From contig NZ_BRVP01000006.1 in NCBI RefSeq assembly GCF_027924145.1, positions 1 through 64,000 on the forward strand: DNA of 64,000 bases, written 5' to 3'. The translations under genes were made by a program, and so were the position numbers. The notes under the pieces are model-generated. The model searched no databases, was not told where the DNA came from, and saw only the letters and a program-made list of their open reading frames with translations. Positions 30,294 through 48,335 of this stretch are shown here, in pieces; positions within the stretch are counted from its first letter, which is position 1, and every line of letters begins with the position of its first letter. This DNA comes from Neptunitalea chrysea. GTDB taxonomy: Bacteria > Bacteroidota > Bacteroidia > Flavobacteriales > Flavobacteriaceae.

Positions 30294-32282
30294 ATGAGAG
30301 GTTTATATCATAAACTATGGAGCATACTAAAGGTAAATGCTTCCATAGCACTGTTTTTATTGATGGTCACAGTTCAGCTTCAGTTTACATTACCTAATGA
30401 GGAGGATAACATGTATGTTAAAGAAACTATTGACAAAAAACTGCATGAAGTAAGTGTACTTATAGGTGACTTTGTGACTATAGCAGAGGCTTACCAAAAT
30501 AAAAAGGGAAATGAAAAGAGTGTACAAGAGGCTTTAAAAAAAGTACGCTTAGCGTATAAGGAAGTGGAAAGTGTTACGAGCTTTTACTTTCCTGAGCACG
30601 ATAAGTTTTACATTAATGGAGCTCCGCTATATCATATAGAGCCCTATCCTACAGGAGCAACCTTTGAAAAAAAGAATTACTATGTATTTACTCCTGAAGA
30701 GTATAAGAACACATTGGTGTTAGATAAAATGGAGGGAGGTCATTATTTAGAAGGAACTTCAAAAGTGATAGCCCCAGTTGGATTGCAACGATTAGATGAA
30801 ATTATTTTTACAGAAGAGGTCGTAACTGAGCAAGATAGAATTTTGGTATTAGCACAGGATTTAAAAACAAAGTTTTCCATTCTTGAGAAAGAACTTAATA
30901 GAAGAAAATATTACCAAGATTTTGAAATAATGGAGTTTACGAGATTGGAGTTGATTAGGATTTTGACTAAGGGTATAACAGGCTTTGATACTCCGGGTTC
31001 CTTAAATGGTATTCAAGAATCGGCTAGCGCATTAGAAGGGATTGAGGACATACTGCATCCTTATTTAAATAAATGTAATTTGAATGATCAGAAGAAGATA
31101 GAAACGCTTTTTAAAAATAGCAGAGCATATCTTTTAAAGCATACAAACTTTAATAATTTTGATCGGTTAGTATTTATTAAAAATTATTTAAATCCTTTAT
31201 ACAAAGAACTACTACTTACCCGAAAACAATTAGAAATTCCTAGTGTTGCAGAACGATACGGACAAACTCCTTCTTGGAACGCAAATAGCGAGAATTTTTT
31301 TGATGAAGATTTTTTAAACCCTTACTATTACAGTATGCTTAAAAAAAAGGAGGACAGTCCAGAATTACGAGCTGTAGGTAAAAAGTTATTTTATGACGGA
31401 CAACTAAGTGATAAAGGTACCCTTAGTTGTGCAACTTGCCACCAACCAAAATTAGGGTATGCAGATGGGCAACGAACCTCTTTTGCTGGTATTCCCGGAA
31501 AACGTCTGGAAAGAAATTCTCCTACACTTATCAATGCCGTTTTTTCAGATAAATATTTTTATGATTTAAGAGCTAATGATTTGGAAGATCAGGCAGAACA
31601 TGTAATAGAGAGTCACATGGAGTTTAATACTTCCTTTGAAGATATTGTAGCAAAACTTAATGCCGATGCATATTATGTAAACGCCTTTAAGAAAATTTAT
31701 AACACCAATACCATTACCAAATACGAATTTTCTGCAGCACTTGCATCTTATATTATCTCGTTGCGCTCGTTTAATAGTGAGTTTGATAAGTATATGAGAG
31801 GAGAAACGGATAAGCTGGATAGAAAGGTAAAAAAAGGATTTAACTTATTTATGGGAAAGGCTAATTGTGCTACTTGTCATTATGTGCCAACTTTTAGCGG
31901 ATTAGTACCACCTCTTTATAATGAGAATGAGAGTGAGGTTTTGGGAGTTATGGAGGTTCCTGAAGAATTGAAAATGGGAACAGATTTTGGACGATATGAA
32001 AATGGAGTGAATAATGAGAATGTAGCAATTTATAAATATTCGTTTAAAACAGTAACGGTTAGAAATGTTGCGTTGACAGCGCCTTATTTTCATAATGGAG
32101 CTTACAAAAGTTTAGATGAGGTGTTGGAGTTTTATAATAGAGGAGGAGCTCAAGGCGTAGGATTAACATACGAGGTGCCTAATCAAACTTTGGCACCGGA
32201 TCATTTAAATTTATCTAAGTCAGATATAGAAGCTATAAAGGCCTTTATGGAATCTCTTACCTCTGTTCCTGTGGATAATTGA
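30294..32282 (+). CDS. Di-haem cytochrome c peroxidase with long helical N-terminus (paralogue 2)
   Basis: This 662-aa paralogue has the same layout as the previous gene: a hydrophobic export segment (about 10-33), a helical domain (about 38-325, with PVGLQRLDEIIF and GFDTPGSLNGIQESASAL) and a CcpA/MauG-like domain. Its haem c sites are C379-A-T-C382-H383 and C525-A-T-C528-H529. It is clearly a tandem duplication of the preceding gene (shared blocks such as SFNSEFDKYMRGE and PPLYNENESEVLGV), diverged mainly in the N-terminal half, where it carries an extra loop. The 4-bp gap implies one transcript. The sigma/FecR/SusCD genes follow on the same strand after 124 bp. Confidence 0.85.
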   Translation: MRGLYHKLWSILKVNASIALFLLMVTVQLQFTLPNEEDNMYVKETIDKKLHEVSVLIGDFVTIAEAYQNKKGNEKSVQEALKKVRLAYKEVESVTSFYFPEHDKFYINGAPLYHIEPYPTGATFEKKNYYVFTPEEYKNTLVLDKMEGGHYLEGTSKVIAPVGLQRLDEIIFTEEVVTEQDRILVLAQDLKTKFSILEKELNRRKYYQDFEIMEFTRLELIRILTKGITGFDTPGSLNGIQESASALEGIEDILHPYLNKCNLNDQKKIETLFKNSRAYLLKHTNFNNFDRLVFIKNYLNPLYKELLLTRKQLEIPSVAERYGQTPSWNANSENFFDEDFLNPYYYSMLKKKEDSPELRAVGKKLFYDGQLSDKGTLSCATCHQPKLGYADGQRTSFAGIPGKRLERNSPTLINAVFSDKYFYDLRANDLEDQAEHVIESHMEFNTSFEDIVAKLNADAYYVNAFKKIYNTNTITKYEFSAALASYIISLRSFNSEFDKYMRGETDKLDRKVKKGFNLFMGKANCATCHYVPTFSGLVPPLYNENESEVLGVMEVPEELKMGTDFGRYENGVNNENVAIYKYSFKTVTVRNVALTAPYFHNGAYKSLDEVLEFYNRGGAQGVGLTYEVPNQTLAPDHLNLSKSDIEAIKAFMESLTSVPVDN

Positions 32283-32406: not shown

Positions 32407-32976
32407 ATGAGCGGTAGTCTTCATATTAATAAGAATATTGAATTTCAAAAAATTTACAGAGAGCATTGGAAATCTTTGTACATATATGCCTATAACATTC
32501 TTAGAGATAAGGAAACTGCTGAAGATGTTATACAGGAAATTTTTGTCGATTTATGGACGCGCTTAGAAACTACAGAAATAGAAAATCCTAAAGCTTATTT
32601 ATTGCAGGCAATCCGATATCAATGTGCCAAGATATTTAAGAAAAAGGAGTTTCTTAACGGTTTTCATATCGAGCAACTAGAAAATGCTATAAGTTTAGTA
32701 ACGGATGAATCTGAATCTGAAAATTTTAAAGAGCAATTGGCATCCTACGTTTTTGAAAAAGCAACACAGGTATTACCAGAACAATGCTATAATGTATTTG
32801 ACTTAAGGTTTAATAAGCAGCTTTCTATTAAAGAGATAGCGAGTCAGCTTCAAATTTCTTCAAGTACTGTAGAGAATCATATTAATAAAGCATTTAAATT
32901 ATTAAAGAGCGAAGATTTATATCAAGCCAAGTTGATTGCCTACATTATACTTTCGTCTACATTTTGTGTTGTCTAA
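32407..32976 (+). CDS. ECF sigma factor of FecI type
   Basis: This 189-aa sigma factor has region 2 (YIYAYNILRDKETAEDVIQEIFVDLW, about 25-50) and region 4 (LPEQCYNVFDLRFNKQLSIKEIASQLQISSSTVENHINKAFKLL, about 126-169). Its pattern fits the Bacteroidota FecI-like group that pairs with FecR and TonB-dependent transducers. Genes in order sigma, FecR, STN-SusC, SusD follow on the same strand, so this factor should activate the SusCD locus when the outer-membrane receptor binds ligand. The hydrophobic C-terminus (AKLIAYIILSSTFCVV) is slightly unusual but occurs in this group. Confidence 0.9.
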   Translation: MSGSLHINKNIEFQKIYREHWKSLYIYAYNILRDKETAEDVIQEIFVDLWTRLETTEIENPKAYLLQAIRYQCAKIFKKKEFLNGFHIEQLENAISLVTDESESENFKEQLASYVFEKATQVLPEQCYNVFDLRFNKQLSIKEIASQLQISSSTVENHINKAFKLLKSEDLYQAKLIAYIILSSTFCVV

Positions 32977-33072: not shown

Positions 33073-34056
33073 ATGAAAATTAAAAATTACAGAAAATTAT
33101 TTGAGCTGTACGAGAGTAATAATTTATCTCAGAAGGAACAACAAGTAGTAGAGACATTTTTTTCTGAAATGCAACATAACGGGATGCATCCTGATGAGAT
33201 AGATTTGGCATTGGAAAGAAAACTTTTTACGGCAATTAAAAAATCTGTAAAGAGGAAACAAAAGGAAAGAGGTGTTGTTTGGAGAAGCATGGCGGCTGCT
33301 TTACTAGTTTTAATAGGGGTGTCTTTGTTTTATGTATATAAATGGAATACGGTAGCGGATGTAGCATATATTACGGTAACAGCATCAGAAAATGTAACAA
33401 AGAGAATTGTTTTACCAGATTCAACTATTGTATACTTAAATAAAGAAAGTTCATTATCATATCCAGAGAAGTTTATGAACAAAACAAGGGAAGTGAAGTT
33501 AGAAGGTGAAGGGTATTTTCGGGTAAAACATAATGCAGAAAAACCATTTTTAGTGGTTTCTGCAAATATGGTAACAAAAGTACTAGGAACCCAATTTGTG
33601 GTATCTGATAATAGTCAGGATATGGAGCCCTCTGTAAAGGTTTTAAAAGGAAAGGTAAAAGTAAATAGTAATACCAAAAAAGCCGAAGCAATACTTACCA
33701 AAAACCAACAAGTATTCTTAAATAAAGAAACAGGCATTTTAACTAAAAAAAGTTTACTAAAAGACACGGTTGATACCTTTTGGAGTTCTCATAAAATTAG
33801 ATTTAAAAATGCTGATATGAGCACGGTTATAGCCAAGCTTAATGAGTATTTTAAAGTACATATAGTTTTAAAAACACCCGAATATGATGGGTGTAAAAAG
33901 ATATCGGGGAGCTTTAAAAGCGATGAGGTAGAAAGTGTTTTAAAAGGAATACAGTTTTTAAATGACATGGAATATAAGAGGGTAGCAGAGAATGAAATAC
34001 ATATATATTTAAAGTCATGTGAAAACGATGATGAAGTAAGATTGAGAATAGAGTAA
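33073..34056 (+). CDS. FecR-family anti-sigma / signal-transduction protein
   Basis: This 327-aa inner-membrane protein has a cytosolic N-terminal domain (1-72) that binds the sigma factor, one transmembrane helix (about 73-89, MAAALLVLIGVSLFYVY) and a periplasmic FecR domain (about 105-215: RIVLPDSTIVYLNKESSLSYP ... KVLGTQFVVSD ... VKVLKGKVKV). A DUF4974-type C-terminal domain follows (about 235-315: FKNADMSTVIAKLNEYFKVHIVL). It relays the state of the outer-membrane receptor (STN domain of SusC) to the sigma factor. Complete, no oddities. A hairpin lies in the gap before susC. Confidence 0.92.
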   Translation: MKIKNYRKLFELYESNNLSQKEQQVVETFFSEMQHNGMHPDEIDLALERKLFTAIKKSVKRKQKERGVVWRSMAAALLVLIGVSLFYVYKWNTVADVAYITVTASENVTKRIVLPDSTIVYLNKESSLSYPEKFMNKTREVKLEGEGYFRVKHNAEKPFLVVSANMVTKVLGTQFVVSDNSQDMEPSVKVLKGKVKVNSNTKKAEAILTKNQQVFLNKETGILTKKSLLKDTVDTFWSSHKIRFKNADMSTVIAKLNEYFKVHIVLKTPEYDGCKKISGSFKSDEVESVLKGIQFLNDMEYKRVAENEIHIYLKSCENDDEVRLRIE

Positions 34057-34076: not shown

Positions 34077-34113
34077 AAACCCGGTAAAGGCGCCAACCAA
34101 AATAACCGGGTTT
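34077..34113 (+). terminator. Hairpin between fecR and susC (terminator or attenuator)
   Basis: A perfect 9-bp stem aaacccggt (34077-34085) / accgggttt (34105-34113) encloses a 19-nt loop containing ggcgcc. The T-run after it is short (ttt then ataaatc), so termination may be partial. Position between the regulators and the transporter suits uncoupling of their expression. Confidence 0.5.
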
Positions 34114-34151
34114 ATAAATCAATTTTATATTAACTCCCCAAAGTTATTCAA

Positions 34152-37100
34152 ATGAAGTGTTTTGTAACAAACGTTTTATCAAAAAAAAGACTTTTTTTTA
34201 CTTTTTTTTCGGTTTCGTTGTTTGTTTTGGGTACGCTTAGTGCCCAAAACAACGATGGGGGAGTTATTGACTCCGTTTATGTAAAAATTTCTAATGATAT
34301 TAAACATGTTACTGATGTGTTGGATATTATAGAGAAACAGACTTCTTTTAATTGTTTATATACTACTTCGGTTGGTAGCTTAGAGAGTTCTACTCCAATT
34401 ATAAGTGAAGGCACTATAGGTCTATATAAACTACTTCAGGTTTTAGAGGATAAATTCTCTATTAGATACGACATACAAGACCGGAATATTTATTTAAAAT
34501 TAGAACACGATGATACTAATATTCAGATTCAACTTAGCGGTACGGTTACAGATGAAGAAGGAGTTCCTATTTATGGGGTAACAATAAAAGTAAATGATAA
34601 CGTTACCCAAACTAATTTTGATGGAGACTATAGTATGAATGTTCGCAGTGGTGAAATGGTAACATTTTCTTATTTAGGAATGAAAACCGAGAAAGTTGAG
34701 GTAACAGAAGCAAACATAAATATGACTTTAGTACCCTGTGCCGAAATACTTTCTGAGGTAATGGTTACCGGGTATGGAACACAATTAAGAAAAAATGTAT
34801 CCACCGCTATTGTAAAAGTAAAGCCTGAGGATTTTAATGGAGGGATAGTTTTGTCACCCTTAGATTTAATCATGGGAAAAGTTGCGGGCTTAACCATTAC
34901 CAACGTAGCCAACAATCCTAATGGCGGGGTGTCAATTCAATTACGTGGAGTTACCTCTATACAAGGAGGAACTACCCCGCTGATTGTAATAGATGGGATA
35001 CCGGGAGGAAATCTAGATTTAATTCAACCCAATGACATAGCGTCTTTTGATATATTAAAAGATGGTGCTGCAGCGGCAGTTTATGGAACCCGCGGGAATA
35101 ATGGTGTTATTTTAATAACCACGAAACAGGGGCATAAAGGGAAAGCTACTTATGAATATGCGACCTATTTTTCGAAAGAGTTTGAAGATAAACATGCCAA
35201 ACCAGACTTCTTAAAAGCAGCTGATTGGAGAAAATTAATAGCTCAAGGAGATTTAAGCGCTAGTTTAGATCATGGAGCATCTACAGATATTTGGGATGCT
35301 CTAATTAATAAAAACAATTTAAGTGAGTATCACACTTTTGCCACTAGTGGAGGAGGGGAAGATAACAGGTATAGAGTATCATTTTATTACAATAACTTTG
35401 AAGGAATTTCAAAAGAAAATGCTAGAGAGGAAGTAGGTGGTAGAATTAATTTCTCCCAAAACGGATTACAAGATAAATTAATGATTCAGGCAGGAATTGC
35501 TGTAAATCATAATGATGCAAATTTATTGGGAGGCGGTAACTTTGGAACCGTTATAGATTGGAATCCTACCGATCCTATTTATGCAGAACCTTCCAATAGT
35601 AACCCTGGAAAGTATGGGTATTATGAGATTTATGGCAGATATAACCCTATATCAAGATATAGTTCACGTAGTTATGAAAGGCAGCAACTCACCTTATCTG
35701 CAACCGCAAAAGTTTCCTATGAAGTATTAAAAAATGTAAAAGCACAGGTTTTTTGGGCATATCAATACGACAATTATGAAGATCGATATTATAGAACAAC
35801 CAAAGACTGGACACAATATCAGGAGGGGAGTCCGTATAGCGGAACCGGATATGCCTATAAATCTAATTATTTGAATTATAATAAATTGTTAGAGAGTATG
35901 TTGAGGTATTCTAATACCTTTGGAGCGCATACTGTAGATGCCTTAATGGGGTATGGGTATCAATATGAAACTATTGAATTTTTTGATGTTAGCAATAGTG
36001 GTTTTACCAGTGATGCTACAGAAGATTGGGATATAGGATCGGATAATAGCTATTCTACACCAACTTTAAGTAGTCGTAAGGAAGATAATACTCTTATTTC
36101 ATTTTTCTCTCGAATTAATTATTCATTTAAAAACCGCTATTTCTTTCAAGCCTCTTGGCGCTATGAAGGGTCTTCCCGTTTTGGAGCTAATAATAAGTGG
36201 GGAGATTTTCCTGCGATATCAGGAGGTTGGGTTATTACAGATGAGCAATTCATGAAACAGCAGCATGTGTTTTCTTTCTTGAAAATACGCACAGGTTTTG
36301 GAATTACTGGAAATCAGGATATTGATAACTATCAGTCATTGGCTAGTTTATCTGGCGGATATAGTTATCCTATTTATTACGATGGAGTTGATGAGGTATT
36401 GTATTATACAACCTATGGACCAGCAAAAAATGTGAATCCAGACTTAAAATGGGAAAAGAAAGAAGAGTTTGATGTAGGTGTTGATTTTGGGTTTCTTAAA
36501 AATAAGCTAACTGGTACCATTGATTATTTTTCAAGAACTACCAAAGATGTCTTATATAATTATTCAGCTCAATTACCTTCAGGAGTAGCTTCAACAGTAT
36601 TGGCAAATGTGGGGTCTATAAAAAATTCAGGCGTAGAAATAACAGGGAACTACACACCAATTAGGAATGCCAATTTTAAATGGGATGTAGCATTAACTGG
36701 GAGTTATCAAAAAAGTATAGTAAAATCACTTTCTAATGACACCTACTTTTTAAGTGAATTTGAAACGGGGAATATAGGAAATCCGGGTAGTTTAGGAAAT
36801 GCGTTTTTAATAAAGGAGGGACGCCCAATTGGAGACTATTATGGAAAGGAATTTGCTGGCTTTACCGATAGTGGCGAATGGTTATTTTATAAGGCAGATG
36901 GTAGTATAGGAACTTCTTCTGAAGTAAGTGATGCTGATAATAGAATTATAGGAAATGGCATGCCAAAATATCAGGCTTCGTTAATAAATAATATTAGCTA
37001 TAAAGGTTTTTATCTGTCTGTGTTTTTACGAGGTAAATTTGATTATGAGATATTAAACACTTTAGATATGTTTTATGGGAATCCTTATATTATTGGAACC

Positions 37101-37409
37101 TCTAATGTGTTGCAATCGGCATTAACTACTCATAAACATATTAATGAAACTCCTATTTATTCTAGTTATTACTTGGAAAAAGGAGATTTTGTAAAAATTG
37201 ATAATGTTCAGATTGGATATAATTTCAAAGAGTTAGGTTTTGTGTCTAATCTTAATCTTTACCTAAGTGTTAGAAATTTATATACTATTACGGGGTATAC
37301 TGGTAGAGATCCTGAAGTTGACGATACCGGACTAACACCTGGTATGGATGATAGATCGTATTACCCAAGAACCAAAACTTTCACCTTTGGATTAAAAGCT
37401 AGTTTTTAA
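34152..37409 (+). CDS. SusC-like TonB-dependent receptor with STN signalling domain
   Basis: This 1085-aa outer-membrane receptor has a signal peptide (1-31, ...VLGTLSAQ), an STN domain (about 48-118, HVTDVLDIIEKQTSFNCLY), a CarboxypepD-regulatory-like domain (about 128-202, LSGTVTDEEGVPIYGVTIKV) and a TonB plug (about 205-325, with SEVMVTGYGTQ, VDGIPGG and AAAVYGTRGNNGVILITTK). The 22-strand barrel ends in a C-terminal Phe (FTFGLKASF). The STN domain means that the receptor also signals through FecR. It works with the SusD lipoprotein to import a large nutrient, classically glycans but also peptides and other polymers. Substrate not deducible from sequence; the downstream phosphatase gene is the best clue. 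Confidence 0.93.
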   Translation: MKCFVTNVLSKKRLFFTFFSVSLFVLGTLSAQNNDGGVIDSVYVKISNDIKHVTDVLDIIEKQTSFNCLYTTSVGSLESSTPIISEGTIGLYKLLQVLEDKFSIRYDIQDRNIYLKLEHDDTNIQIQLSGTVTDEEGVPIYGVTIKVNDNVTQTNFDGDYSMNVRSGEMVTFSYLGMKTEKVEVTEANINMTLVPCAEILSEVMVTGYGTQLRKNVSTAIVKVKPEDFNGGIVLSPLDLIMGKVAGLTITNVANNPNGGVSIQLRGVTSIQGGTTPLIVIDGIPGGNLDLIQPNDIASFDILKDGAAAAVYGTRGNNGVILITTKQGHKGKATYEYATYFSKEFEDKHAKPDFLKAADWRKLIAQGDLSASLDHGASTDIWDALINKNNLSEYHTFATSGGGEDNRYRVSFYYNNFEGISKENAREEVGGRINFSQNGLQDKLMIQAGIAVNHNDANLLGGGNFGTVIDWNPTDPIYAEPSNSNPGKYGYYEIYGRYNPISRYSSRSYERQQLTLSATAKVSYEVLKNVKAQVFWAYQYDNYEDRYYRTTKDWTQYQEGSPYSGTGYAYKSNYLNYNKLLESMLRYSNTFGAHTVDALMGYGYQYETIEFFDVSNSGFTSDATEDWDIGSDNSYSTPTLSSRKEDNTLISFFSRINYSFKNRYFFQASWRYEGSSRFGANNKWGDFPAISGGWVITDEQFMKQQHVFSFLKIRTGFGITGNQDIDNYQSLASLSGGYSYPIYYDGVDEVLYYTTYGPAKNVNPDLKWEKKEEFDVGVDFGFLKNKLTGTIDYFSRTTKDVLYNYSAQLPSGVASTVLANVGSIKNSGVEITGNYTPIRNANFKWDVALTGSYQKSIVKSLSNDTYFLSEFETGNIGNPGSLGNAFLIKEGRPIGDYYGKEFAGFTDSGEWLFYKADGSIGTSSEVSDADNRIIGNGMPKYQASLINNISYKGFYLSVFLRGKFDYEILNTLDMFYGNPYIIGTSNVLQSALTTHKHINETPIYSSYYLEKGDFVKIDNVQIGYNFKELGFVSNLNLYLSVRNLYTITGYTGRDPEVDDTGLTPGMDDRSYYPRTKTFTFGLKASF

Positions 37410-37414
37410 AAGTT

Positions 37415-39025
37415 ATGAAACAGAAAAAATTACTATTAATAGGGATGTTTTTTAGTTGGGTGTTTTTTGGATGTACCAATCTCGACGAAAATGTATATAG
37501 TGAAATATCTGAAAATAACTTTTACAATTCTAAATTAGAGATATATGAAAGTGCTATGTATCCTTTTACCTATATGTATGATTGGTTGGCATGGTCTAAT
37601 GAGTATAGTTATTTTTATCATAATGAGCTATCGGCTGACCAGTTGGCATGGCCGCAAAAAGGAAGACATGGGTATGATAGAGGGGAGCATATAAGGGCAC
37701 ATTACCATACTTGGACTACAGATGAAAGACGAATAGGGCTTATGTGGGGTGCTATGTATAAAGATATAGGCTATACCAATTTTGCTATTTCAAATTTAAG
37801 TACGGTAAATGTTGCCTCTGTAGATATGACCACTGAGGAAATGGAAAGTCTTATAGCAGAGCTTAAAGTGTATAGAGCTTTTATACATATGAAATTAATG
37901 GATATGTTCGGCAATATTCCTATTTCAACAGATGTAACCTCTGTTAATATTCCAACAGTTGAAAGAACTGAAGTGTTCAATTGGGTTGAAAGTGAGATAT
38001 TGAATAATATAGATAAGCTTCAACTAGCTTCAGAAAATTTGGTGGGGCGTGTAACCAAAGTGGTTGCATATGCTATGCTAACCGAGTTGTATTTAAATGC
38101 AGAAGAATGGACGGGTACGGCAAGATGGAATGAGTGTATAACCTATTGTGACCAAATTATTTCGGGAGAAGGAGGTGCCCAAACTGGAAGTTTACAATTA
38201 GACGAAAATGTTTTAGGGCCGTTCAACAATACAAATCATTTATCGAGTGAGAATATTTATGAAGTTCCTTTTAGTTTTGACAATGGGTTTAGTAAAAACT
38301 GGTCAGGTATTCTTATGGGATTTTCAAATATGTCATCAGCGTTAAACGTAAATTATAGTGGTAACAATGCTTTTGTAGTAATACCAACGGCTTTTGATAT
38401 GTTTGAAGAGCAAGACTACAGAAAACAACAATGGTTTTTATTTGGTCCACAATATGAGTACGGAACCACAACGCCCATTTTAGGTTCTGAAGAGTACTTA
38501 GGTGAACCTTTTATTTATGTAAATAATATTAGAAGGAACTCTGAGGGACAAACGGGGGAAGGAGGTATGACAGATGGAGAAGAAAATAGTGGAGCACGTT
38601 TTCACAAGTACAGATCGGGTACCGCAGCAGATGCTAATTACTTAGAAAATGACTTTGTGGTTTACAGGTTAACAGAAATTTATTTTTCTAAAGCTGAGGC
38701 TATTATGAGAGCTAACGGAGGGATGCCAACTCAAGAAGCGGTAGACCTGATAAATGAGAGTAAGAGTAGGTATTTTTCTTCAACAGATTTTATAAGTAGC
38801 GCATACACAATAAACTCCTTAACACTTAATGAATTGCTAAATGAAAGAGGAAGAGAGTTCATTTTTGAAGGTAAACGGAGAACCGATTTAATACGGTTTG
38901 GAAAGTTTACAACTACTTCATGGTGGGATAAATCTCCGGATGGGGGCAATTACCTAAAGCTAATGCCAATTCCTGCCGATCAAATAGCTGCAAATCCTAA
39001 TTTGATTCAAAATACTGGTTACTAG
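37415..39025 (+). CDS. SusD/RagB-family surface lipoprotein
   Basis: This 536-aa lipoprotein (MKQKKLLLIGMFFSWVFFGC, Cys about residue 20) is the lid partner of the SusC barrel. It shows the typical SusD features: N-terminal NNFYNSKLEIYESAMYPFTYMYDWL, a TPR-like helical core with AELKVYRAFIHMKLMDMFGNIPIST (about 150-175), and C-terminal YRLTEIYFSKAEAIMRANGG plus LNERGREFIFEGKRRTDLIRFGKF (about 475-500). It starts 5 bp after the susC stop codon, so the two are co-translated. No terminator is seen directly after it. Ligand unknown. Confidence 0.93.
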   Translation: MKQKKLLLIGMFFSWVFFGCTNLDENVYSEISENNFYNSKLEIYESAMYPFTYMYDWLAWSNEYSYFYHNELSADQLAWPQKGRHGYDRGEHIRAHYHTWTTDERRIGLMWGAMYKDIGYTNFAISNLSTVNVASVDMTTEEMESLIAELKVYRAFIHMKLMDMFGNIPISTDVTSVNIPTVERTEVFNWVESEILNNIDKLQLASENLVGRVTKVVAYAMLTELYLNAEEWTGTARWNECITYCDQIISGEGGAQTGSLQLDENVLGPFNNTNHLSSENIYEVPFSFDNGFSKNWSGILMGFSNMSSALNVNYSGNNAFVVIPTAFDMFEEQDYRKQQWFLFGPQYEYGTTTPILGSEEYLGEPFIYVNNIRRNSEGQTGEGGMTDGEENSGARFHKYRSGTAADANYLENDFVVYRLTEIYFSKAEAIMRANGGMPTQEAVDLINESKSRYFSSTDFISSAYTINSLTLNELLNERGREFIFEGKRRTDLIRFGKFTTTSWWDKSPDGGNYLKLMPIPADQIAANPNLIQNTGY

Positions 39026-39446: not shown

Positions 39447-42400
39447 ATGAAAAAAAGTTTACTACTTATTAGTTTATTCTTTTCGCTGTGTATGAATTTT
39501 GGCTTGCAAGCGCAAACCACTATTCCGGGAGATTCATTGGTCTTTGGCCCTATGTTTAGCCCTGTATACCAGAACAAGGTAAGAGTATGGATGCTTACCA
39601 AGAATAACACAGGAACGGGGGCTACATTGACCCTTTCTATGACCGGAGCCAGTACGCCAACCACTGAGCTAACCGGCACTGTTTACAATTCAGATGACCG
39701 TTTAGATTATTCTTTACGTTCGTTTGAGTTTACCAACTTACAGGTGGGAGAAACCTATACGGCTACCTTACTTGTAGATGGTGTGAGTTCAGGAAGAACA
39801 TCAACAATCTCTAATGAACAAAGTATTGTTGATGATTTTACGTTTTTAGCTGGAGGATGTGCCAGAATTTTTGATCTTTCTCGTTGTATTGATACACCTG
39901 AGTCGTTTACCCACATAAATGGGGATCCGGAAATTTTTAATCATATGGCTGCTGAAGATAGTGATCTTATGGTATGGTTAGGAGATGCGGTTTATTTACT
40001 AGGTTTACAGCACGCTGATGGACAATGCCCTGATGGGGTTGACGATTGGGCCAATAAGAATATGGCTTTTGATCGTTATAGATTTTATCGTCAATTTCAC
40101 GATAGTCTGTTAATGTCAATGCCTCAACTTGCTATTACGGATAATCACGATACCGGACCTAATGAGTTTAATAAAACCATGCCTACGCTAGCGGATACAC
40201 GTGAAGTTTTTATGGAGTGGTGGCCAAATCCAGAATATTTAAGTACTTCTGAAGGTCAAGGTTTATACTCTTCTTATGTATATAAAGATGTGGAGTACTT
40301 TTTGACAGATAACAGAAGCTACCGAGATGGTACAGCGCAACATTTTGGAGATGAGCAGTTAGAGTGGTTAAAGCAAGGGTTGTTAAACTCAACTGCAACT
40401 TTTAAAGTAATTATTAACGGAACACCTACATTTAGAGAAATTGGTGGTAGAAACTTTAGTGTGAGTAATCAGGCTGATGAGTTTTTAGCATGGATTCAGG
40501 ATCATAATATTAATGGGGTATTCTCGTATTGTGCAGATATTCATGATCAACGTTTTATGGTGCGTGAAGGAGATACAAAATACCCTTTATATGATATAAT
40601 GTCTGGAAACCTGAATTCTGATATTGGAGGTAATGGAGAAACAGGGAGTTATTCTGTGAATTATCAAGCATCTGACGATATACTTTCGGGTGTAAAACAT
40701 GCGTATGCTAAAAATTCTGTATACGGAGATCCTGGAGACAGAAGAATAAAGATTGAATATGTTGGTTTTGATGGAGTAACATTTTTTGAAGAAATTATTC
40801 ATGAGCAAATGCTTACGAGTCAAAATTCAGATGCTTTAAACTTATCTTTAGATTTTGCCAATGATGTAGCAGATGCTTCTGTAAATGCACATTCAGTACA
40901 AGCAACTAACTATACTTTTGGTACAGACCATGAAGGTACGGCTAATGAGGCTTTAGTATACAGTGCAAATACAACCATGAGTGCTCCTTTAGCTAATTCG
41001 TTAACTTTTCATGATAGAGCATATAGTCTTAGTTTTTGGGTAAATCCTGCTAGTATAGGTTCTAAAGCTACTATTTTATCTAATGGCGTTAATGGAGCCG
41101 GAGTATCTTTTGGTATTTCAGATAATGGAAACTTAATTTATACCAACCATGCTACAGGTAATACCTTAACAAGTAATTACACCATTTTAGCTAATGATTG
41201 GATTTATGTTACTTATAAATATGATAATGTACGAAGAAAGTTAAGTTTATACTATAACGGATTTTTAATTCAGACTTGGAATGGAGTTGCATCTCCTATA
41301 GAATCTGGAGCCGATGTAACAATTGGTAACGATTTTGAAGGAAACCAATTTATTGGAAGTTTAGATGATGTTAATTTATATGGTAGATTAATATCTGATG
41401 AAGATATTCTTTTAGCAGCAAATGTAGATTCTAATCGTGGAGAGATGTTAAAATTAGCAGGCGGGCAACAAACAAATGTGCCTTCTACTAATGTTAACTC
41501 ATTATTTACAAACGATTTTACAATAGAGTTTTGGGCTAAATTAAATGCAGATCCAGGAACTAATGTACCTATGTTTTCTTCTCATGGTAGAGTAAACGGA
41601 AACTCTACAGGTATTTCTATGGAGTTCAATGATTCGAACCAATTAAACATTGTATTGGGTACAAATGGATCGGGTTGGAATAAGATAGATTCTCAAGGAG
41701 ATTCTTGGACAGTAGGTGAATGGAACCATGTGGCAGTAACCGCTACTGATGGGGGAGCTATAAAGTATTATTTAAATGGAGCATTTGTTGCCGAAATGAC
41801 CAATAGTGGTTATGTACCTAACGATTACGGAATGGGATTTGGTTATAGCCCTTACTATGGTAGTGATTTAGCCGGTGGTATGGATGAGTTTAGAATCTGG
41901 ACAAAAGCTCTAACAGCTGAAGAAGTTGCTGAAAGTATGCATTATCCGTTAGATGGTTCAGAAACTGATTTAGGATTATATTACGACTTTACAGAGTACG
42001 ATACTACTGGAACTACGGTAATGAGTGAAGGTTCTGTAAATTACTTAATGGATGTTACTACAGCTTCTCTAACTACTTCAACAGCACCAGTAGGTAATAT
42101 TGGGGTTACCTATCAAGATGAAGTTTTAGGAAAATGGAGTAAAGTAAATTCTGTGAATAGTTATGGACTAAGCTTCTCTGATGCTATTTCTATTTATACA
42201 AGTAATATAGTTATTGGTAAACAAGTTAATACAGGGATGGCTGCTGTGCCTAATTTAGCTGATGTTTACTATTTAGAAGGAGGTTGGAAGATAGATCCGT
42301 TAAACAGTCCGTTTGCTTCTGTACGTGTAAATTTATCAGAAGCATTAGGAACTTCTGCCGATTCAATAGCCGGAATAGCAGGGCAATTTTATTTATTGAA

Positions 42401-45400
42401 AAAAGACGAAGGAGCTACAGATTTTACAGTAGTAAAAGAGGGTAGCTTTGATGGTGCTAATGTTAACTTTTACGATACAAATTTAGAAGAGTCAATCTAC
42501 TATTTTGCATGGGAAGAAGCTGATTTTATCCCTGGAAGAGGAGGAGCTATTTCGTTGACTGATAATCACGAAATGAAAATTCATTATACACCAGCTGAGA
42601 TTGTTTTAAATGGTACCCACACTTTTGAGTTGTGGTTAAATATACCTAGTGATCCTAGTGACAAGCCTATTCTATCTAACCATGGTAGAGTAAATGGTTT
42701 AAGTACAGGTTTTACATTAGAGTTGAATGACAATAATACGCTTTCTGCTGTATATGGTAATAATGGCTCTGGATGGACTAAAGCTTCTACTTCAACCTCA
42801 TTAAATATGGGAGAATGGTATCATGTTGCTATAACTGCAAATCCTGGTAATGAGGTTAAAATTTATTTAAATGGTGTTTTAGAGTCTAGTACAGCGTTCT
42901 CTAGTTATATTGCTAACAACACATGGGAGTTCATGTTTGGAGAAAGCGAAAACTATGGAGGTTCTGTAAACTATATGATGGATGAATTCCGTATGTGGTC
43001 TGTTGTTAGAACTCAGGATGAAATTATTGCCGATATGCACCGTATGTTAGATGTTTCGGGAGAAACATTGAAATACTATTTTGCTTTTGATCAGGACGAT
43101 ACAGGTATTCTAGTAAACGAAGGATACAATACAACTACCGATATTACGTATGCAGATGCAACTATTTTGGATGCTACTAGCCCAGTAGCAGATTTAGATG
43201 CTGCATATGATAATACCGTTACAGGTAGCTGGAGTATTACCAGTGAAGAAATTAACGGAATGTATGTAGGTGAAAATATTACAGATTATACGAAGAACAT
43301 TGTTTTTGGTAGAAATGAAGATAATACCATAGCAGAAATCACTAGTACTACAGACGAAACACATTATGTTACCGGAGGATGGTATGCTAGCGTTATGAAT
43401 ATGACTACTGCAGATATTTCTGTTGATTTATCGTATGTTTTTGATAATGTAGCGATGATTGACGCAACGGTAGCTCAGTATTTATTACTTTCTGGAGATC
43501 CATCTAGTGCGTACGTTGTTGAAGGTACTGCTACTTCTGTTAATGGGATAGTTACTTTTAATGATGTGGCTATTACTAATGGAATATATTATCTGGCGTA
43601 TGAAATAGACTTAGCTGCTGCAGTAGCCGAACAAGGAGGAGTTCTTGAGTTACAAGATAGTCATGATGTAGCAATTGATTATACAACGGCAGAAACACTT
43701 ATGGCAGGAGCTCATACTATTGAGTTATGGGTAAACCTTAGTGAGGCTGCTTCTGGAAGTAATAAAACGATATTGGCTAACCATGGAAGAATAAATAGCC
43801 TTACAACTGGTTTTACATTACAATTAGAATCGGGTAATGCGCTTAATGCAATCTATGGTAACAATGGTTCTGGTTGGACATTAACTGGTACGCAAGGATT
43901 GCAATTAGGAGAATGGAATCATATAGCAATTGTTGCAGTTCCTGGTTCGGATATTAAAGTGTACCTAAATGGAGAGTTAGAGTCTTCAACGTCGTTTACT
44001 TCGTATATACCAAATAGTACATGGGATTTTACTTTTGGTAAAAGTTTAAATTACGGAGGAAGTATTAACTTTAAAGCAGATGAGTTTCGTCTTTGGACTG
44101 TTGAAAGAACACAGGATGAAATTAAAGCTGATATGTATAAAACATTAACCACTACAGAACCTAACTTAGCTATTAATTATACATTCAATCAGGATGATAA
44201 TGGTACTTTGGTAGATGGAGGTAGTGCAACATCAAATATTACATATACAAATGCTGCTATTGTGCCTGCTACAACACCGGTACGTGTGGCAACAGCGCCT
44301 TACGATGATGTAGTTGCTGGTAGCTGGAGTGTTAAAAATGATACAGCAGCGGGAATGTATTACGGTTCAACAATTACCGATTTTAATAGCAATATTGTTG
44401 TTGGAAAAGAAACGGGTACAACAGTACTACCTGTTTTAGGGGCTGCTACTATAGATACTTTGTATTTAAATAGTAGATTTTATGTAGATCCATTATTTAT
44501 AACTTCAGGATCTGTACACGTTGACTTAACGGAAATTTTTGATGATTTAAACCAAGTAGATTTAATCGCTAATGATTATTTCTTATTAACCGGAGATCCT
44601 GCTACAGCAGTAAACATTATTGCAACAGGTTCTAAAACAAATAATGTGGTAACCTTTGATAATGTTACTTTTGATGAGGAACCTGTGTACTTAGCTTGGA
44701 TTAATATCAACGAATATCCAGTGGGAACGTTCCCGATTGCTTCTGGAGGTATCTGGAAATACAATGACAATGGAGTAGATTTAGGTACTTCATGGTACGA
44801 TCCTTCTTATGATGACAATAGTTGGTTATTTGGTAACGCTGTTTTGGGGTATGGAGACGGTATTGAATCTACTACATTAGATTACGGAACCGATGCTAGT
44901 AACAAGTACCCTACCTATTATTTACGTCATACGTTTACTGTGGATGATGCATCAGTAATTGGAGACTTAGTATTTAATGTACAAAAAGATGATGGGGTTG
45001 TAGTGTATGTAAACGGTACTGAAGCGTTTAGATTGAACATGCCTACGGGTGTTATCACTTATGATACGTATGCATCTTCTGCAATCGGAGGTTCAGATGA
45101 AGAAGCTTGGATAGAAGTTGAAACCAGTAACTTATTGGTTACAGGTGAAAATGTAATAGCGGTAGAGTTACACCAAGCAGGTGCAACTAGTTCAGATCTT
45201 AGATTTGATATGTCTGTAGATTATAATGCCCCTGCTTTAGATGTTACAGATTATCCTGTAAGTAAAGATGAAGAATGGTATTATTTAGATCAAGGAACTG
45301 ATTTAGGAACTGATTGGTTAGCTACAGACTATGATGTAATTCCATGGTCTAGAGGAAATGCTCCTTTTGGATATGGTGATACAGTAAATACAACAGTATC

Positions 45401-47336
45401 TTACGGATCGGATGCTAGTAACAAGTATATTACTACATACTATGTTAAAGATATTAATGTAACGTATAATGACTTAACAGATAACGTTGAGTTTGGATTA
45501 CGTAGAGATGACGGTGCAGTTGTTTATGTAAACGGTGTAGAAGTATTTAGAAGTAATATGCCAACAGGTACAGTAGATTATTTAACTACCGCTACAAATG
45601 CTATTGGTGGTATAGATGAAAATATCTACTTTACTATAGAAGTACCTAAAACAGCCTTTGTAGATGGAGTAAACCGTATAGCGGTAGAATTACACCAAGC
45701 AAATGCTACTAGTTCTGATACTCGCTTTGATATGTATCTTAAGAATACAGAAGATTTAGGAATAGATTGTACTACAGAGGCTATCGGATGTTTTACATCT
45801 ATAAATCCTACATCGCAAACTACCAACTTAATTATACCGCAAGAGCATACCTTCCAAATGATTATGAAAGAAGGAGATGCTTATATGACAGGTGGTGGTA
45901 ACATGCCGGGTAATAATGATTTTACTTGTTATGTGCCAATTAATGGAAGTAGTGAACAAGGGTATTTATCTGTAAACCAAGAGAACACTCCTGGTGGCGT
46001 ATCGATGTTAGATATTCATTTAGATACAGCTACTAACTTATGGGTAGTAGACAATAGTCAGGCAGTAGATATATATGATGCAGATTTAGTGACTACTACC
46101 AGAAACTGTTCTGGAGGATTAACTCCATGGGGAACTGTAGTTACTGCAGAAGAAACTATGAACTCAGGAGACTCTAACGGAGATGGATATCAGGATGTAG
46201 GTTGGTTAGTAGAAATTGATCCTGCTACAGCATCTGTTATCGATCAGGACGGAGACGGATCTAAAGATAAGTTATGGGCAATGGGACGTATGAACCATGA
46301 GAACGTAGTAATTACTGCCGATGGAACAACGGCTTATTATGGAGAAGATGGTGGAACTCATTGTGTATACAAATATGTAATGGATACACCAGGTGATTTA
46401 AGTGCCGGAACAGTATATGTGTTAAGTTTAGATTTAGCATTATCAGGTAGCGATCCTTCTTCATCAACAGGAACATGGATTGAAGTTCCAAACGATACAC
46501 AATCTGATAGAAACAACTTAAATACGGTGGCTTCTAGTGTAGGAGGTACTACTTTTAATGGAATTGAGGATGTAGAGATTAATCCTTTAAACAATAAAAT
46601 CTATTTTACTGCTAAAGGGTTAAACAGAGTATATCGTTTTAAAGATAATGGTGATGGCACTTTTAGTGAGTTTGAAACTTTTGTTGGAGGAATGAGCTAT
46701 GATGTAAACACAGCTAGTGGTGCACAAACAGAAGCTTGGGCTAATGGAAATGACAACTTAACATTTGATGATCAAGGAAACCTTTGGGTATTACAAGATG
46801 GTGGTAAGAACTACATTTGGGTTGTAAGACCAGACCATACTCAAAGTACTCCTAATGTAGAGTTATTCTCATCTATGCCAATAGGGTCAGAACCAACCGG
46901 ATTAACGTTTTCACCAGATTACAAATACGGGTTCTTTTCTGTACAGCACCCAAGTGGTAGTAATGTATCACAAACTGATGCTGCCGGAAACTCAGTGACT
47001 TTTAATGCTTCTGCAACTATTGTAATTTCTTTAGAAAACAATTTAGGAACCTATGGATTAGAAGAGGTTTCAGGAGATTCAAACGGAATTACGTTGTATC
47101 CTAATCCAACAGAAGGACTAGTTACATTACAATTCAACGGATCTTACTCAACAGAAGGAATTACTATTGAAGTATTTGACGTGTTAGGAAGAAGTTTAAT
47201 TACATATAACGATATGTCGTTGGTAAATAAAGAATTATCATTAGACTTAAGATCGTTAAGTGAAGGAAATCAAGTATTATTACTTCAGGTAACTGTTGAT
47301 GGGGTATCTCAGCAGTTTAAAGTACTTATGAAGTAA
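39447..47336 (+). CDS. Giant T9SS-secreted PhoD-LamG-PhoX phosphatase fusion
   Basis: This 2629-aa secreted protein starts at 39447 (signal peptide MKKSLLLISLFFSLCMNFGLQAQ; an ATG 12 bp earlier is less fitting). An N-terminal PhoD-type domain (about 30-450) has the Fe-ligand-type GGC138AR, WLGD180AVY, D232NHD235 and a C362ADIHD367 histidine site. Four LamG/ConA-like modules follow, beginning about residues 462, 665, 1028 and 1395. Two about 150-residue jelly-roll-like repeats lie at about 1755-1930 and 1935-2090. A PhoX/DUF839-like domain (about 2110-2520) shows NC2221SGGLTPWG, AE2235E, MGR2281MNH2284E and Q2500HP. The tail (about 2545-2629, LYPNPTEGLVTL) is a T9SS sorting domain. Both phosphatase families are Fe/Ca alkaline phosphatases acting on phosphoesters. 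It directly follows the susCD genes. Confidence 0.85.
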   Translation: MKKSLLLISLFFSLCMNFGLQAQTTIPGDSLVFGPMFSPVYQNKVRVWMLTKNNTGTGATLTLSMTGASTPTTELTGTVYNSDDRLDYSLRSFEFTNLQVGETYTATLLVDGVSSGRTSTISNEQSIVDDFTFLAGGCARIFDLSRCIDTPESFTHINGDPEIFNHMAAEDSDLMVWLGDAVYLLGLQHADGQCPDGVDDWANKNMAFDRYRFYRQFHDSLLMSMPQLAITDNHDTGPNEFNKTMPTLADTREVFMEWWPNPEYLSTSEGQGLYSSYVYKDVEYFLTDNRSYRDGTAQHFGDEQLEWLKQGLLNSTATFKVIINGTPTFREIGGRNFSVSNQADEFLAWIQDHNINGVFSYCADIHDQRFMVREGDTKYPLYDIMSGNLNSDIGGNGETGSYSVNYQASDDILSGVKHAYAKNSVYGDPGDRRIKIEYVGFDGVTFFEEIIHEQMLTSQNSDALNLSLDFANDVADASVNAHSVQATNYTFGTDHEGTANEALVYSANTTMSAPLANSLTFHDRAYSLSFWVNPASIGSKATILSNGVNGAGVSFGISDNGNLIYTNHATGNTLTSNYTILANDWIYVTYKYDNVRRKLSLYYNGFLIQTWNGVASPIESGADVTIGNDFEGNQFIGSLDDVNLYGRLISDEDILLAANVDSNRGEMLKLAGGQQTNVPSTNVNSLFTNDFTIEFWAKLNADPGTNVPMFSSHGRVNGNSTGISMEFNDSNQLNIVLGTNGSGWNKIDSQGDSWTVGEWNHVAVTATDGGAIKYYLNGAFVAEMTNSGYVPNDYGMGFGYSPYYGSDLAGGMDEFRIWTKALTAEEVAESMHYPLDGSETDLGLYYDFTEYDTTGTTVMSEGSVNYLMDVTTASLTTSTAPVGNIGVTYQDEVLGKWSKVNSVNSYGLSFSDAISIYTSNIVIGKQVNTGMAAVPNLADVYYLEGGWKIDPLNSPFASVRVNLSEALGTSADSIAGIAGQFYLLKKDEGATDFTVVKEGSFDGANVNFYDTNLEESIYYFAWEEADFIPGRGGAISLTDNHEMKIHYTPAEIVLNGTHTFELWLNIPSDPSDKPILSNHGRVNGLSTGFTLELNDNNTLSAVYGNNGSGWTKASTSTSLNMGEWYHVAITANPGNEVKIYLNGVLESSTAFSSYIANNTWEFMFGESENYGGSVNYMMDEFRMWSVVRTQDEIIADMHRMLDVSGETLKYYFAFDQDDTGILVNEGYNTTTDITYADATILDATSPVADLDAAYDNTVTGSWSITSEEINGMYVGENITDYTKNIVFGRNEDNTIAEITSTTDETHYVTGGWYASVMNMTTADISVDLSYVFDNVAMIDATVAQYLLLSGDPSSAYVVEGTATSVNGIVTFNDVAITNGIYYLAYEIDLAAAVAEQGGVLELQDSHDVAIDYTTAETLMAGAHTIELWVNLSEAASGSNKTILANHGRINSLTTGFTLQLESGNALNAIYGNNGSGWTLTGTQGLQLGEWNHIAIVAVPGSDIKVYLNGELESSTSFTSYIPNSTWDFTFGKSLNYGGSINFKADEFRLWTVERTQDEIKADMYKTLTTTEPNLAINYTFNQDDNGTLVDGGSATSNITYTNAAIVPATTPVRVATAPYDDVVAGSWSVKNDTAAGMYYGSTITDFNSNIVVGKETGTTVLPVLGAATIDTLYLNSRFYVDPLFITSGSVHVDLTEIFDDLNQVDLIANDYFLLTGDPATAVNIIATGSKTNNVVTFDNVTFDEEPVYLAWININEYPVGTFPIASGGIWKYNDNGVDLGTSWYDPSYDDNSWLFGNAVLGYGDGIESTTLDYGTDASNKYPTYYLRHTFTVDDASVIGDLVFNVQKDDGVVVYVNGTEAFRLNMPTGVITYDTYASSAIGGSDEEAWIEVETSNLLVTGENVIAVELHQAGATSSDLRFDMSVDYNAPALDVTDYPVSKDEEWYYLDQGTDLGTDWLATDYDVIPWSRGNAPFGYGDTVNTTVSYGSDASNKYITTYYVKDINVTYNDLTDNVEFGLRRDDGAVVYVNGVEVFRSNMPTGTVDYLTTATNAIGGIDENIYFTIEVPKTAFVDGVNRIAVELHQANATSSDTRFDMYLKNTEDLGIDCTTEAIGCFTSINPTSQTTNLIIPQEHTFQMIMKEGDAYMTGGGNMPGNNDFTCYVPINGSSEQGYLSVNQENTPGGVSMLDIHLDTATNLWVVDNSQAVDIYDADLVTTTRNCSGGLTPWGTVVTAEETMNSGDSNGDGYQDVGWLVEIDPATASVIDQDGDGSKDKLWAMGRMNHENVVITADGTTAYYGEDGGTHCVYKYVMDTPGDLSAGTVYVLSLDLALSGSDPSSSTGTWIEVPNDTQSDRNNLNTVASSVGGTTFNGIEDVEINPLNNKIYFTAKGLNRVYRFKDNGDGTFSEFETFVGGMSYDVNTASGAQTEAWANGNDNLTFDDQGNLWVLQDGGKNYIWVVRPDHTQSTPNVELFSSMPIGSEPTGLTFSPDYKYGFFSVQHPSGSNVSQTDAAGNSVTFNASATIVISLENNLGTYGLEEVSGDSNGITLYPNPTEGLVTLQFNGSYSTEGITIEVFDVLGRSLITYNDMSLVNKELSLDLRSLSEGNQVLLLQVTVDGVSQQFKVLMK

Positions 47337-47423: not shown

Positions 47424-48335
47424 ATGAAGTTACACTATATAGTACCAATTTTAATAGTTTTTGCATGTAAGATAGGATTGGCACAGAATGCAAATCCGTT
47501 AGAAACACCAGTTTATAGCAGCATGGAATTGGCTATGAAGGATGCTGAAAATGTGTATCAACTTAGCTTACGAGATAAACACCAATTTTATATTTCTAAG
47601 GATATAGCTAAATTAAAGAAGCTTACTTTTTTTAATGCTATGGGAAATAATTTAGAGTTCTGGACTCCAGAAATTTTTGCTCTTAAAAAGTTAGAGGTAC
47701 TAAATTTAAAGTTAAACTCATTAACTTATATACCCAAAGAAATAGCAAAGCTAAATAATCTTCTTAGATTAAATTTAGCTAATAATGGAATTACGAATGT
47801 GCCCGTTAGTATTGGCGCTTTAGATAAATTACGCTTTTTACATTTGTCTATTAATGTTATCACTGAAATACCTGGTACAATAAAGGGCTGTAAAGATTTA
47901 GAAGTGTTAGAATTAGATAATAACCAGTTGAGTTTTTTACCAATAGAAATTACATCTCTTAAAAAGTTAAGAGTGTTAAATATCGGATATAATCAGTTTA
48001 ACGAGCTGGAACCTGAATGGACTGTATTTAAGAAATTAGAGGAGCTAAATGCAGAACACAATAACTTACGTGCTATCCCTACCGAATTAGGTGAATTATC
48101 TAGTTTAAAATCATTGCTTTTAAATAATAATAAATTGGTTTCGTTACCAGAATCATTAACTAATCTGCAGCAGTTAGAATTATTATTAGTATCGAATAAT
48201 AATATATCTAAAATGCCTCATGATCTTGAAAAGCTAAAAAACTTAAAAACACTTATTCTAAACGGTAATCCGATTAGTTTGTTAGAGCAAAATAGAATTA
48301 GAAAGTCGCTTCCTAATTGTAAAATATATTTTTAG
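47424..48335 (+). CDS. Exported leucine-rich repeat protein
   Basis: The start at 47424 (ATG) is preferred over an upstream in-frame TTG at 47409, because the signal peptide MKLHYIVPILIVFACKIGLAQ then begins at residue 1. The 303-aa protein contains about nine 23-residue leucine-rich repeats of the bacterial SDS22-like type (LxxLxxLxLxxNxLxxIPxxI), from about residue 60 to the C-terminus, forming a solenoid for protein-protein binding. No catalytic or anchoring domain is present. The stop codon overlaps the convergent msrA stop codon. Role unknown. Confidence 0.85.
   Translation: MKLHYIVPILIVFACKIGLAQNANPLETPVYSSMELAMKDAENVYQLSLRDKHQFYISKDIAKLKKLTFFNAMGNNLEFWTPEIFALKKLEVLNLKLNSLTYIPKEIAKLNNLLRLNLANNGITNVPVSIGALDKLRFLHLSINVITEIPGTIKGCKDLEVLELDNNQLSFLPIEITSLKKLRVLNIGYNQFNELEPEWTVFKKLEELNAEHNNLRAIPTELGELSSLKSLLLNNNKLVSLPESLTNLQQLELLLVSNNNISKMPHDLEKLKNLKTLILNGNPISLLEQNRIRKSLPNCKIYF

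Follow-up and report, generated by a model that had tools for sequence, protein, structure and literature searches.

A PhoD–PhoX fusion protein of Bacteroidota with a predicted type IX secretion tail and two MauG-like di-haem genes that track its two phosphatase-like domains

RESULTS

A fused phosphatase gene and its neighbourhood

We found that one gene of Neptunitalea chrysea unites two iron–calcium alkaline phosphatase families, PhoD and PhoX, in a single putative surface enzyme and that this fusion, whose carriers include bacteria of the sea and of soil, is kept across three classes of Bacteroidota. Two MauG-like di-haem genes lie upstream of it, of which CCP1 tracks the PhoX module and CCP2 tracks the PhoD module. 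In the following, the window denotes the whole stretch of 64,000 nt that was analyzed (contig NZ_BRVP01000006.1, positions 1 to 64,000); its relevant features are collected in Table 1.

Table 1. Features of the fusion gene and its neighbourhood (window coordinates)
Feature	Coordinates	Strand	Basis
CCP1, MauG-like di-haem protein, PhoX-linked clade, two CXXCH	28424..30286	+	
CCP2, MauG-like di-haem protein, PhoD-linked clade, two CXXCH	30294..32282	+	
ECF sigma factor	32407..32976	+	
FecR anti-sigma factor	33073..34056	+	
SusC/RagA TonB-dependent transporter	34152..37409	+	
SusD-like lipoprotein	37415..39025	+	
PhoD-LamG-repeat-PhoX-T9SS fusion gene, 2629 aa	39447..47336	+	ORF, Pfam, orthologues
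Sec-type signal peptide, residues 1-23, without twin-arginine motif	39447..39515	+	by eye
PhoD-like domain, residues 28-458	39528..40820	+	Pfam, profile search, structure prediction
Region with four Laminin_G_3 stretches, residues 460-1740	40824..44666	+	Pfam
Two-repeat module, residues 1741-2105	44667..45761	+	sequence by eye
PhoX-like propeller, residues 2116-2540	45792..47066	+	Pfam, profile search, structure prediction
Type IX secretion C-terminal sorting tail	47094..47327	+	Por_Secre_tail E 8.4e-8
Leucine-rich-repeat (LRR) protein of cassette	47424..48335	+	

The initial annotation had described a protein that joins PhoD and PhoX domains by LamG modules and ends in a T9SS tail, and this architecture was borne out by a single open frame without internal stops, by Pfam matches and by orthologues. 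The PhoD match covers residues 159-330 (E 4.9e-9, 36.2 bits against a cut-off of 27), the PhoX match residues 2214-2502 (E 2.9e-36, 126 bits against a cut-off of 24) and the Por_Secre_tail match, likewise above its cut-off, residues 2550-2608; TIGR04183 scored 22.0 bits on the tail, marginally below the cut-off of 23. With its C-terminal sorting domain and a signal peptide recognized by eye, whose start MKK is kept in the orthologue, the protein has the predicted features of a T9SS cargo. Two repeats, the jelly-roll-like modules of the initial annotation, can be recognized by eye at about residues 1740-2105, where we obtained no above-cut-off Pfam match. A Toxin_R_bind_N match in the fusion was set aside as a mere reflection of the LamG-like fold.

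A full-length copy with 64% identity to the window fusion is present in another genus. When we compared the Pustulibacterium protein with that of the window part by part, the identity was 80% for PhoD, 58% for LamG and 84% for PhoX, i.e. both enzyme domains are more conserved than the LamG linker. The fusion is not an assembly fluke, because of the full-length copy in another genus and because the same architecture occurs in 15 named genomes besides that of the window. An assembly or annotation artefact, for which we found no supporting point, is already refuted by these genomes and its probability is negligible.

In the window, the ECF sigma factor, FecR, SusC and SusD genes (32407-39025) separate the di-haem genes from the fusion, and no SusCD pair was found at this place in the other 15 fusion loci. 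Matches that would name the LRR protein an effector or internalin were rejected, as they lie far below cut-off and were read as the LRR fold only. Two more proteins with a T9SS tail, one of them with PKD domains, are encoded on the minus strand of the window at 12279-17201 and 10379-12124.

Distribution and history of the fusion

The PhoD part served as query against one genome from each of 84,980 species; an exact short peptide was required, so that the scan undercounts. It yielded 18 loci, 15 of which carry both domains in a single frame of 2177-3429 aa. The search for other proteins with both domains, which the initial annotation had proposed, thus led to 15 named genomes beyond that of the window: Pustulibacterium, two Winogradskyella, Tamlana, two Flavobacterium, Mesonia oceanica, Dawidia, Cesiribacter, Parachryseolinea, Niastella, two Chitinophaga, a Crocinitomicaceae MAG and Owenweeksia (MAG). 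Two of the 18 loci (L088 and L096, from Mesonia phycicola and Salegentibacter) carry a split version in which PhoD and PhoX are adjoining genes that both end in a sorting tail, and PhoX is absent from the remaining one (L098). According to the lineages of five of these names, the carriers fall in the Flavobacteriia, Cytophagia and Chitinophagia. The fusion is rare: it occurs in 3 of 397 genomes of the family sample and, among the 296 genomes of the phylum sample, in the window's own genome only. The family sample also holds a PhoD-LamG protein of 683 aa without PhoX (G388). In viral contigs, 54 pattern matches for the PhoD subtype were obtained, none of which was confirmed as a relative.

In the PhoD tree the subtype forms one clade (100/100) against three stand-alone rows, and fused, split and PhoD-only copies are intermixed within it, which would fit an old fusion followed by splits and losses. 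The base of the PhoX tree is poorly resolved, and this tree does not contradict an old fusion.

Several relatives with other architectures were observed. At L098:10001-17602 a PhoD-LamG protein of 2534 aa is encoded in a locus without PhoX or di-haem gene; L098 shares its MAG accession series with the fused locus L095. The 1190-aa protein encoded at L080:5967-9539 combines a PhoD-like domain with LamG, Ig_7 and a sorting tail; it has neither PhoX nor a di-haem neighbour. Three proteins of a second PhoX clade (clade II; L014, L015 and L017, the genes of L040, L056 and L052) carry long DADNDG/DCDDSD-type repeats after the enzyme domain.

Fold and metal site of the PhoX-like domain

The initial annotation had expected both folds to be confirmed by structure prediction, and the models agree with this. 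For PhoX, a profile of 13 proteins matched P. fluorescens PhoX (E about 3e-30), and the model of the window domain (pLDDT 89.9, pTM 0.90) aligned to 4a9v with Z 31.2 and an rmsd of 3.0 over 386 residues, against Z 25.1 for the best of the other propellers; the predicted fold is therefore that of the PhoX propeller. The PhoX motifs named in the initial annotation (NCSGG.TPWG, AEE, MGRMNHE and QHP) are all present in the sequence.

For the metal site we compared 54 sequences, 29 from the fusion's clade, eight from clade II and 17 others, leaving out repeat loci and fragments (L024, L044-L051, L078, L079, L109 and L125). C2221, E2235, E2236, E2285, D2301, E2374 and D2436 are invariant in all 54. 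In P. fluorescens numbering, which we assigned through alignments, they correspond to Cys179, the EE pair, Glu273, Glu387, Asp479 and one more Asp (2301). Judged by these alignments, the predicted site keeps Cys179, Glu273, Glu387 and Asp479 together with the neighbouring Glu/Asp; Cys179, Glu194, Glu273, Glu387 and Asp479 are the residues that we take to be ligands in P. fluorescens PhoX. Arg385, which presumably has a functional role there, appears to be replaced: its position holds Gly in 29/29 sequences of the fusion's clade and 8/8 of clade II (37 in total) and Arg in 17/17 others, and therefore we file the window domain as PhoX-like. Residue 2178 of the window protein is Gln for His, a change found in 2 of the 29 sequences of its clade.

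Two candidate marks of CCP-paired PhoX were examined. Ala in place of Cys before the EE pair was rejected, since 4 of 38 paired copies have Cys, and no ungapped column that has Trp in CCP-paired PhoX tells paired and unpaired copies apart.

Fold and metal site of the PhoD-like domain

A profile of eight PhoD-like proteins matched B. subtilis PhoD (2yeq, E 6.7e-18), which a single-sequence search with the window PhoD part failed to find. The confidence of the structure model is middling (pLDDT 67.4, pTM 0.77). Foldseek ranked 2yeq at the top (E 6.6e-16), and VIA-align gave Z 25.4 with an rmsd of 3.5 over 378 for 2yeq and Z up to 28.8 for purple acid phosphatases, to which PhoD is structurally related according to the accessible part of PMC4223295. 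The model thus points to the fold of PhoD and purple acid phosphatases. GGCAR, WLGDAVY, DNHD and CADIHD, the PhoD motifs of the initial annotation, can all be read in the sequence.

Site positions were set by profile alignment and the accessible part of PMC4223295, and counted in 20 copies of the fusion-type subtype (window included), with six stand-alone relatives as comparison and the PhoD-like matches L080, L081 and L124 left out. C138, D180, Y183, D232, H234, D364 and H366 are invariant in 20/20 copies and correspond to Cys180, Asp207, the Tyr, Asp265, the His after the DN pair, Asp436 and the last His of B. subtilis PhoD. The predicted Fe site (C138, D180, Y183, D364 and H366 in the window protein; Cys180, Asp207, Tyr, Asp436 and His in B. 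subtilis terms) thus appears complete. The set of Ca ligands (Asp265, Asp266, Asn271 and Asn272) appears incomplete, and therefore we file the domain as a PhoD-like variant and not as canonical PhoD: Asp266 is replaced by Asn in 20/20 subtype copies and is Asp in 6/6 stand-alone relatives, and the residue following GPN is Glu in 20/20 copies and Asp or Asn in the six relatives. In a gapless profile alignment of uncertain register, Asn271 aligned on Pro in 19/20 subtype copies and 6/6 stand-alone relatives, and Asn272 on the Asn of GPN in 19/20. Cys147 and Cys194 are invariant in the subtype and were not seen in the six stand-alone relatives. A Trp258-Trp259 pair is invariant in 20/20 copies, with Phe at the position of Trp258 in 6/6 stand-alone PhoD.

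The complete ligand sets that the initial annotation had predicted are therefore nearly, but not fully, right, because of the fixed changes in both sites: most ligands are in place, and those that fail are Asp266 (Asn) and the Glu after GPN in PhoD, and Arg385 (Gly) in PhoX. As a whole, its interpretation is partly supported.

Two di-haem clades, one for each phosphatase type

CCP1 and CCP2 each consist of a CCP_MauG half with two CXXCH and a separate N-terminal half, for which no Pfam family scored above cut-off. These N-terminal halves are ~300 aa long (28424-29400 and 30294-31400 in the window), and similarly long relatives turn up repeatedly across the phylum. All 52 long di-haem proteins compared, which were selected for two CXXCH, have a Tyr at the position matching MauG Tyr294; the assignment was made by matched range, and the same position falls on a Tyr of the di-haem enzyme 6e1c. 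With two CXXCH and a Tyr at the position of the sixth ligand of the second haem, they would belong to the MauG/BthA type. The same position holds Met in three of the five peroxidases among the matches listed, and the other two are not aligned there. Over the haem domain, the best matches of CCP1 are peroxidases of known structure. The equivalog models for MauG and MbnH indicate resemblance only, with scores far under the cut-offs (TIGR03791: 172 bits for CCP1 and 173 for CCP2 against 444; TIGR04039: 188 and 163 against 363), so that neither protein is likely to be an equivalog.

In the tree of the 52 proteins, CCP1 (23 rows, 100/97) and CCP2 (19 rows, 99/99) form separate clades. Every one of the 23 CCP1 rows belongs to a locus with a fusion-type PhoX module, and every one of the 19 CCP2 rows to a locus with a fusion-type PhoD module. 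CCP2 is found in 19/20 loci with a PhoD module (window included) and in none of ten PhoX-only loci. Full-length CCP1 is found in 15 of the 18 loci carrying both modules; it is a fragment at the locus edge in L086 and absent from the fusion loci L087 and L099. The PhoX-only loci of the fusion's clade (550-1000 aa) carry a cassette of di-haem, PhoX-like and LRR protein in 10/10 cases, with an extra gene between in L030 and a di-haem gene cut by the contig end in L031. The LRR gene is also present in 16/20 PhoD-module loci. Single loci complete this distribution: G388, which has PhoD only, carries CCP2 and lacks CCP1; L098 has PhoD with neither PhoX nor CCP; and in Mesonia oceanica the gene order is CCP1, PhoX-only gene, CCP2, fusion, LRR. 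These counts are not independent, because the loci were selected for their phosphatase and are related to each other.

PhoX lineages with and without di-haem neighbours

A second PhoX lineage of about 610 aa has a Sec-like start, keeps the Arg and ends in a sorting tail (by Pfam in one protein, by eye in the rest). The long di-haem gene is adjacent in 9/9 of its loci with a visible neighbour; a tenth (L109), on a 3-kb contig where the neighbour is not visible, was left out. In the phylum sample, 16 of 18 PhoX frames (those of 600-740 aa, the 552-aa G133 and the window) lie less than 10 kb from a long di-haem gene. One miss is the window itself, at 13.8 kb, because SusCD and the regulators lie between; the other is G484, with a clade II-like start and no long di-haem gene near. 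In the same sample, the frames of 494-517 aa, which match PhoX weakly, had a long di-haem gene near in 4/4 cases. In the class of 450-590 aa, of which 14 carry a twin-arginine pair and three an Arg-Lys variant near the frame start, we observed a nearby di-haem gene in 0/17. None of 19 CCP-paired PhoX has RR within the first 40 residues. Eight wider loci with Tat-type PhoX (six with the RR motif, two with cut starts; L118 and L123 short on one gene side) gave 0/8 di-haem genes, so that altogether a di-haem neighbour was found for none of 25 Tat-type PhoX (17 in the phylum sample and eight in wider loci). The typing in the phylum sample left out secondary pieces and the weak matches G580, G712, G575, G564 and G659:C35; none of these five matches is near a listed di-haem place. 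Outside the three length classes stand G033 (954 aa, clade II) and G652 (1841 aa), neither with a di-haem gene near. A nearby di-haem homologue was likewise found for 0/8 T9SS PhoX of clade II (L056 and L055 having little sequence on one side) and for 0/6 stand-alone PhoD with Sec-like starts.

We also inspected 20 long di-haem places. One has a PhoX call within 10 kb; the other 19 were taken from the 32 that lack such a call. In 16 of the 20 (not in L131, L134, L135 and L141) a lipoprotein of ~480-565 aa lies directly upstream, and the genome of the window encodes a homologue of this lipoprotein. One member (L145) matched PF05787 with E 1.9e-6 and the member of the window's genome gave no Pfam match, a weak hint that the family may be PhoX-like. 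The genome of the window also encodes a third long di-haem protein (G000:C12:114614-116263; L115:8600-10453), directly after a 510-aa lipoprotein, homologues of which adjoin most other long di-haem genes inspected.

DISCUSSION

Proposed function and alternatives

The explanation that we favour, and to which we give an even chance, is an organophosphate enzyme of the cell surface whose two active sites are each oxidatively matured by a separate di-haem enzyme. What we infer on activity, substrates, order of action and maturation would fit together as follows. The fusion would be a T9SS-exported organophosphate hydrolase of the cell surface with two putative active sites, a PhoD-type site predicted to act on phosphodiesters and some monoesters and a PhoX-type site predicted to act on monoesters. 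The lectin-like LamG modules may hold both together. The two sites would attack large or surface-bound organic phosphates one after the other, with the products perhaps imported by the window's SusCD pair. T9SS proteins pass the inner membrane by Sec, and therefore the iron sites of such a cargo must be made outside; the fusion would accordingly acquire its metal centres outside the cytoplasm. A dedicated oxidizing di-haem enzyme for each site would fit this need: before export, periplasmic CCP1 for PhoX and CCP2 for PhoD may oxidize the site or install a protein-derived cofactor. Since clade II PhoX and stand-alone PhoD have no di-haem neighbours, Sec export alone is an insufficient explanation. 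Known PhoD and PhoX are exported folded via Tat, which is linked to cytoplasmic iron loading (PMC4223295, accessible part).

The fixed changes (Asp266 to Asn, Arg385 to Gly; Gln2178) could mean altered or lost activity, and the reading that only one domain is catalytic and the other has turned into a phosphate or polymer binder, which we consider quite unlikely, builds on them. Asp266 is Asn and Glu follows GPN in all 20 PhoD copies, and according to the accessible part of PMC4223295 the mutation D266A drastically lowers PhoD activity; in PhoX, Arg385 is Gly throughout the 29 sequences of the fusion's clade. Against this speak the Fe site of PhoD and the listed PhoX residues, which are invariant in 20/20 and 54/54 sequences, the far stronger conservation of both domains compared to the LamG linker, and the loci L088 and L096, where each domain is a protein of its own with a sorting tail. 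These split versions are what one would expect if the two domains were joined for co-export and anchoring only and acted independently. The fusion is, however, kept across three classes and spread through the PhoD clade, and we regard this reading as rather unlikely. A similarly limited likelihood is given to the di-haem proteins being plain H2O2-removing peroxidases, which would protect the iron sites or serve phosphate-starved cells and leave the phosphatase unmodified. Their CCP_MauG family, the peroxidase matches of CCP1 and the peroxidase activity that BthA retains beside MauG-like traits (PMC6405878, accessible part) agree with it, but one separate clade per phosphatase type is unexpected for a general peroxidase, and Tyr occupies in 52/52 proteins the position where three of the five listed peroxidases have Met, the other two being unaligned. 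Maturation of each site by its own di-haem enzyme may be part of a wider scheme, which we consider less likely than not: in a general system of Bacteroidota, each Sec-exported extracytoplasmic metallophosphatase would be the dedicated substrate of a matching MauG-like di-haem enzyme, which would oxidize its metal site or form a protein-derived cofactor, the fused giant with its two sites needing two. The Trp258-Trp259 pair of PhoD would then be one candidate target.

With both phosphatase domains and their matching di-haem genes at a single locus, each pairing can be disrupted within one organism. This also makes testable the inactivity of Flavobacterium PhoX away from its native host and the targets of BthA-like di-haem enzymes.

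Comparison with known systems

With P. fluorescens PhoX (3zwu, 4a9v) the window domain has in common the fold and the positions of Cys179, Glu194, Glu273, Glu387 and Asp479; it differs by Gly at Arg385, by Sec and T9SS instead of Tat export signals, by its MauG-like partner and by the fusion to PhoD. The PhoD domain shares with B. subtilis PhoD (2yeq) the fold and the positions of the Fe-site Cys, Asp, Tyr and His, and is distinguished by Asn for Asp266, the absence of a Tat signal, the extra Cys147/Cys194 and the fusion. Both diesters and monoesters are substrates of B. subtilis PhoD; PhoX is restricted to monoesters (PMC4223295, accessible part).

The closest parallel is Flavobacterium Fjoh_2478/2477, where, as here, a PhoX-family phosphatase lies beside a MauG-like di-haem gene. 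According to the accessible part of that report, phoX shares an operon with the MauG-like gene, both are highly expressed in phosphate starvation, and a F. johnsoniae phoX mutant has reduced inducible phosphatase activity (PMC8812569). F. johnsoniae PhoX alone was inactive in P. putida, for which incomplete folding or localization was also named as a possible cause, and a MauG-made cofactor was suggested as possibly needed (PMC8812569). There PhoX is described as a lipoprotein, and in that part of the report a PhoD domain, a sorting tail and a second MauG are not mentioned (PMC8812569). Burkholderia BthA is likewise a di-haem enzyme with a Tyr beside a phosphatase. It has a Tyr-ligated haem, forms a bis-Fe(IV) state and retains peroxidase activity, and it always adjoins an outward-facing putative purple-acid phosphatase, whose oxidation by BthA was called conceivable (PMC6405878, accessible part). 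The BthA locus belongs to another phylum and pairs a single di-haem enzyme with a single phosphatase, for which the same part reports no fusion (PMC6405878). The Cu enzyme MtoX, too, goes together with a mauG gene (PMC5739008, as far as accessible). Flavobacterium PUS loci are Pi-induced and combine SusCD-like genes with ECF sigma or FecR genes (PMC8115612, accessible part); they share with the window a SusCD-like pair and ECF sigma/FecR beside a phosphatase, the likeness of the window being one of gene content alone.

Given the published Flavobacterium operon, the PhoX-MauG pair is therefore not new. A narrow search of the open-access literature found no publication on a PhoD-PhoX fusion, which leaves uncontradicted the statement of the initial annotation that no enzyme with both domains had been described. 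As far as such narrow searches show, what is new is the joining of PhoD and PhoX in one protein, a further di-haem enzyme that goes with PhoD, the domain-wise pairing and the difference from Tat-type PhoX.
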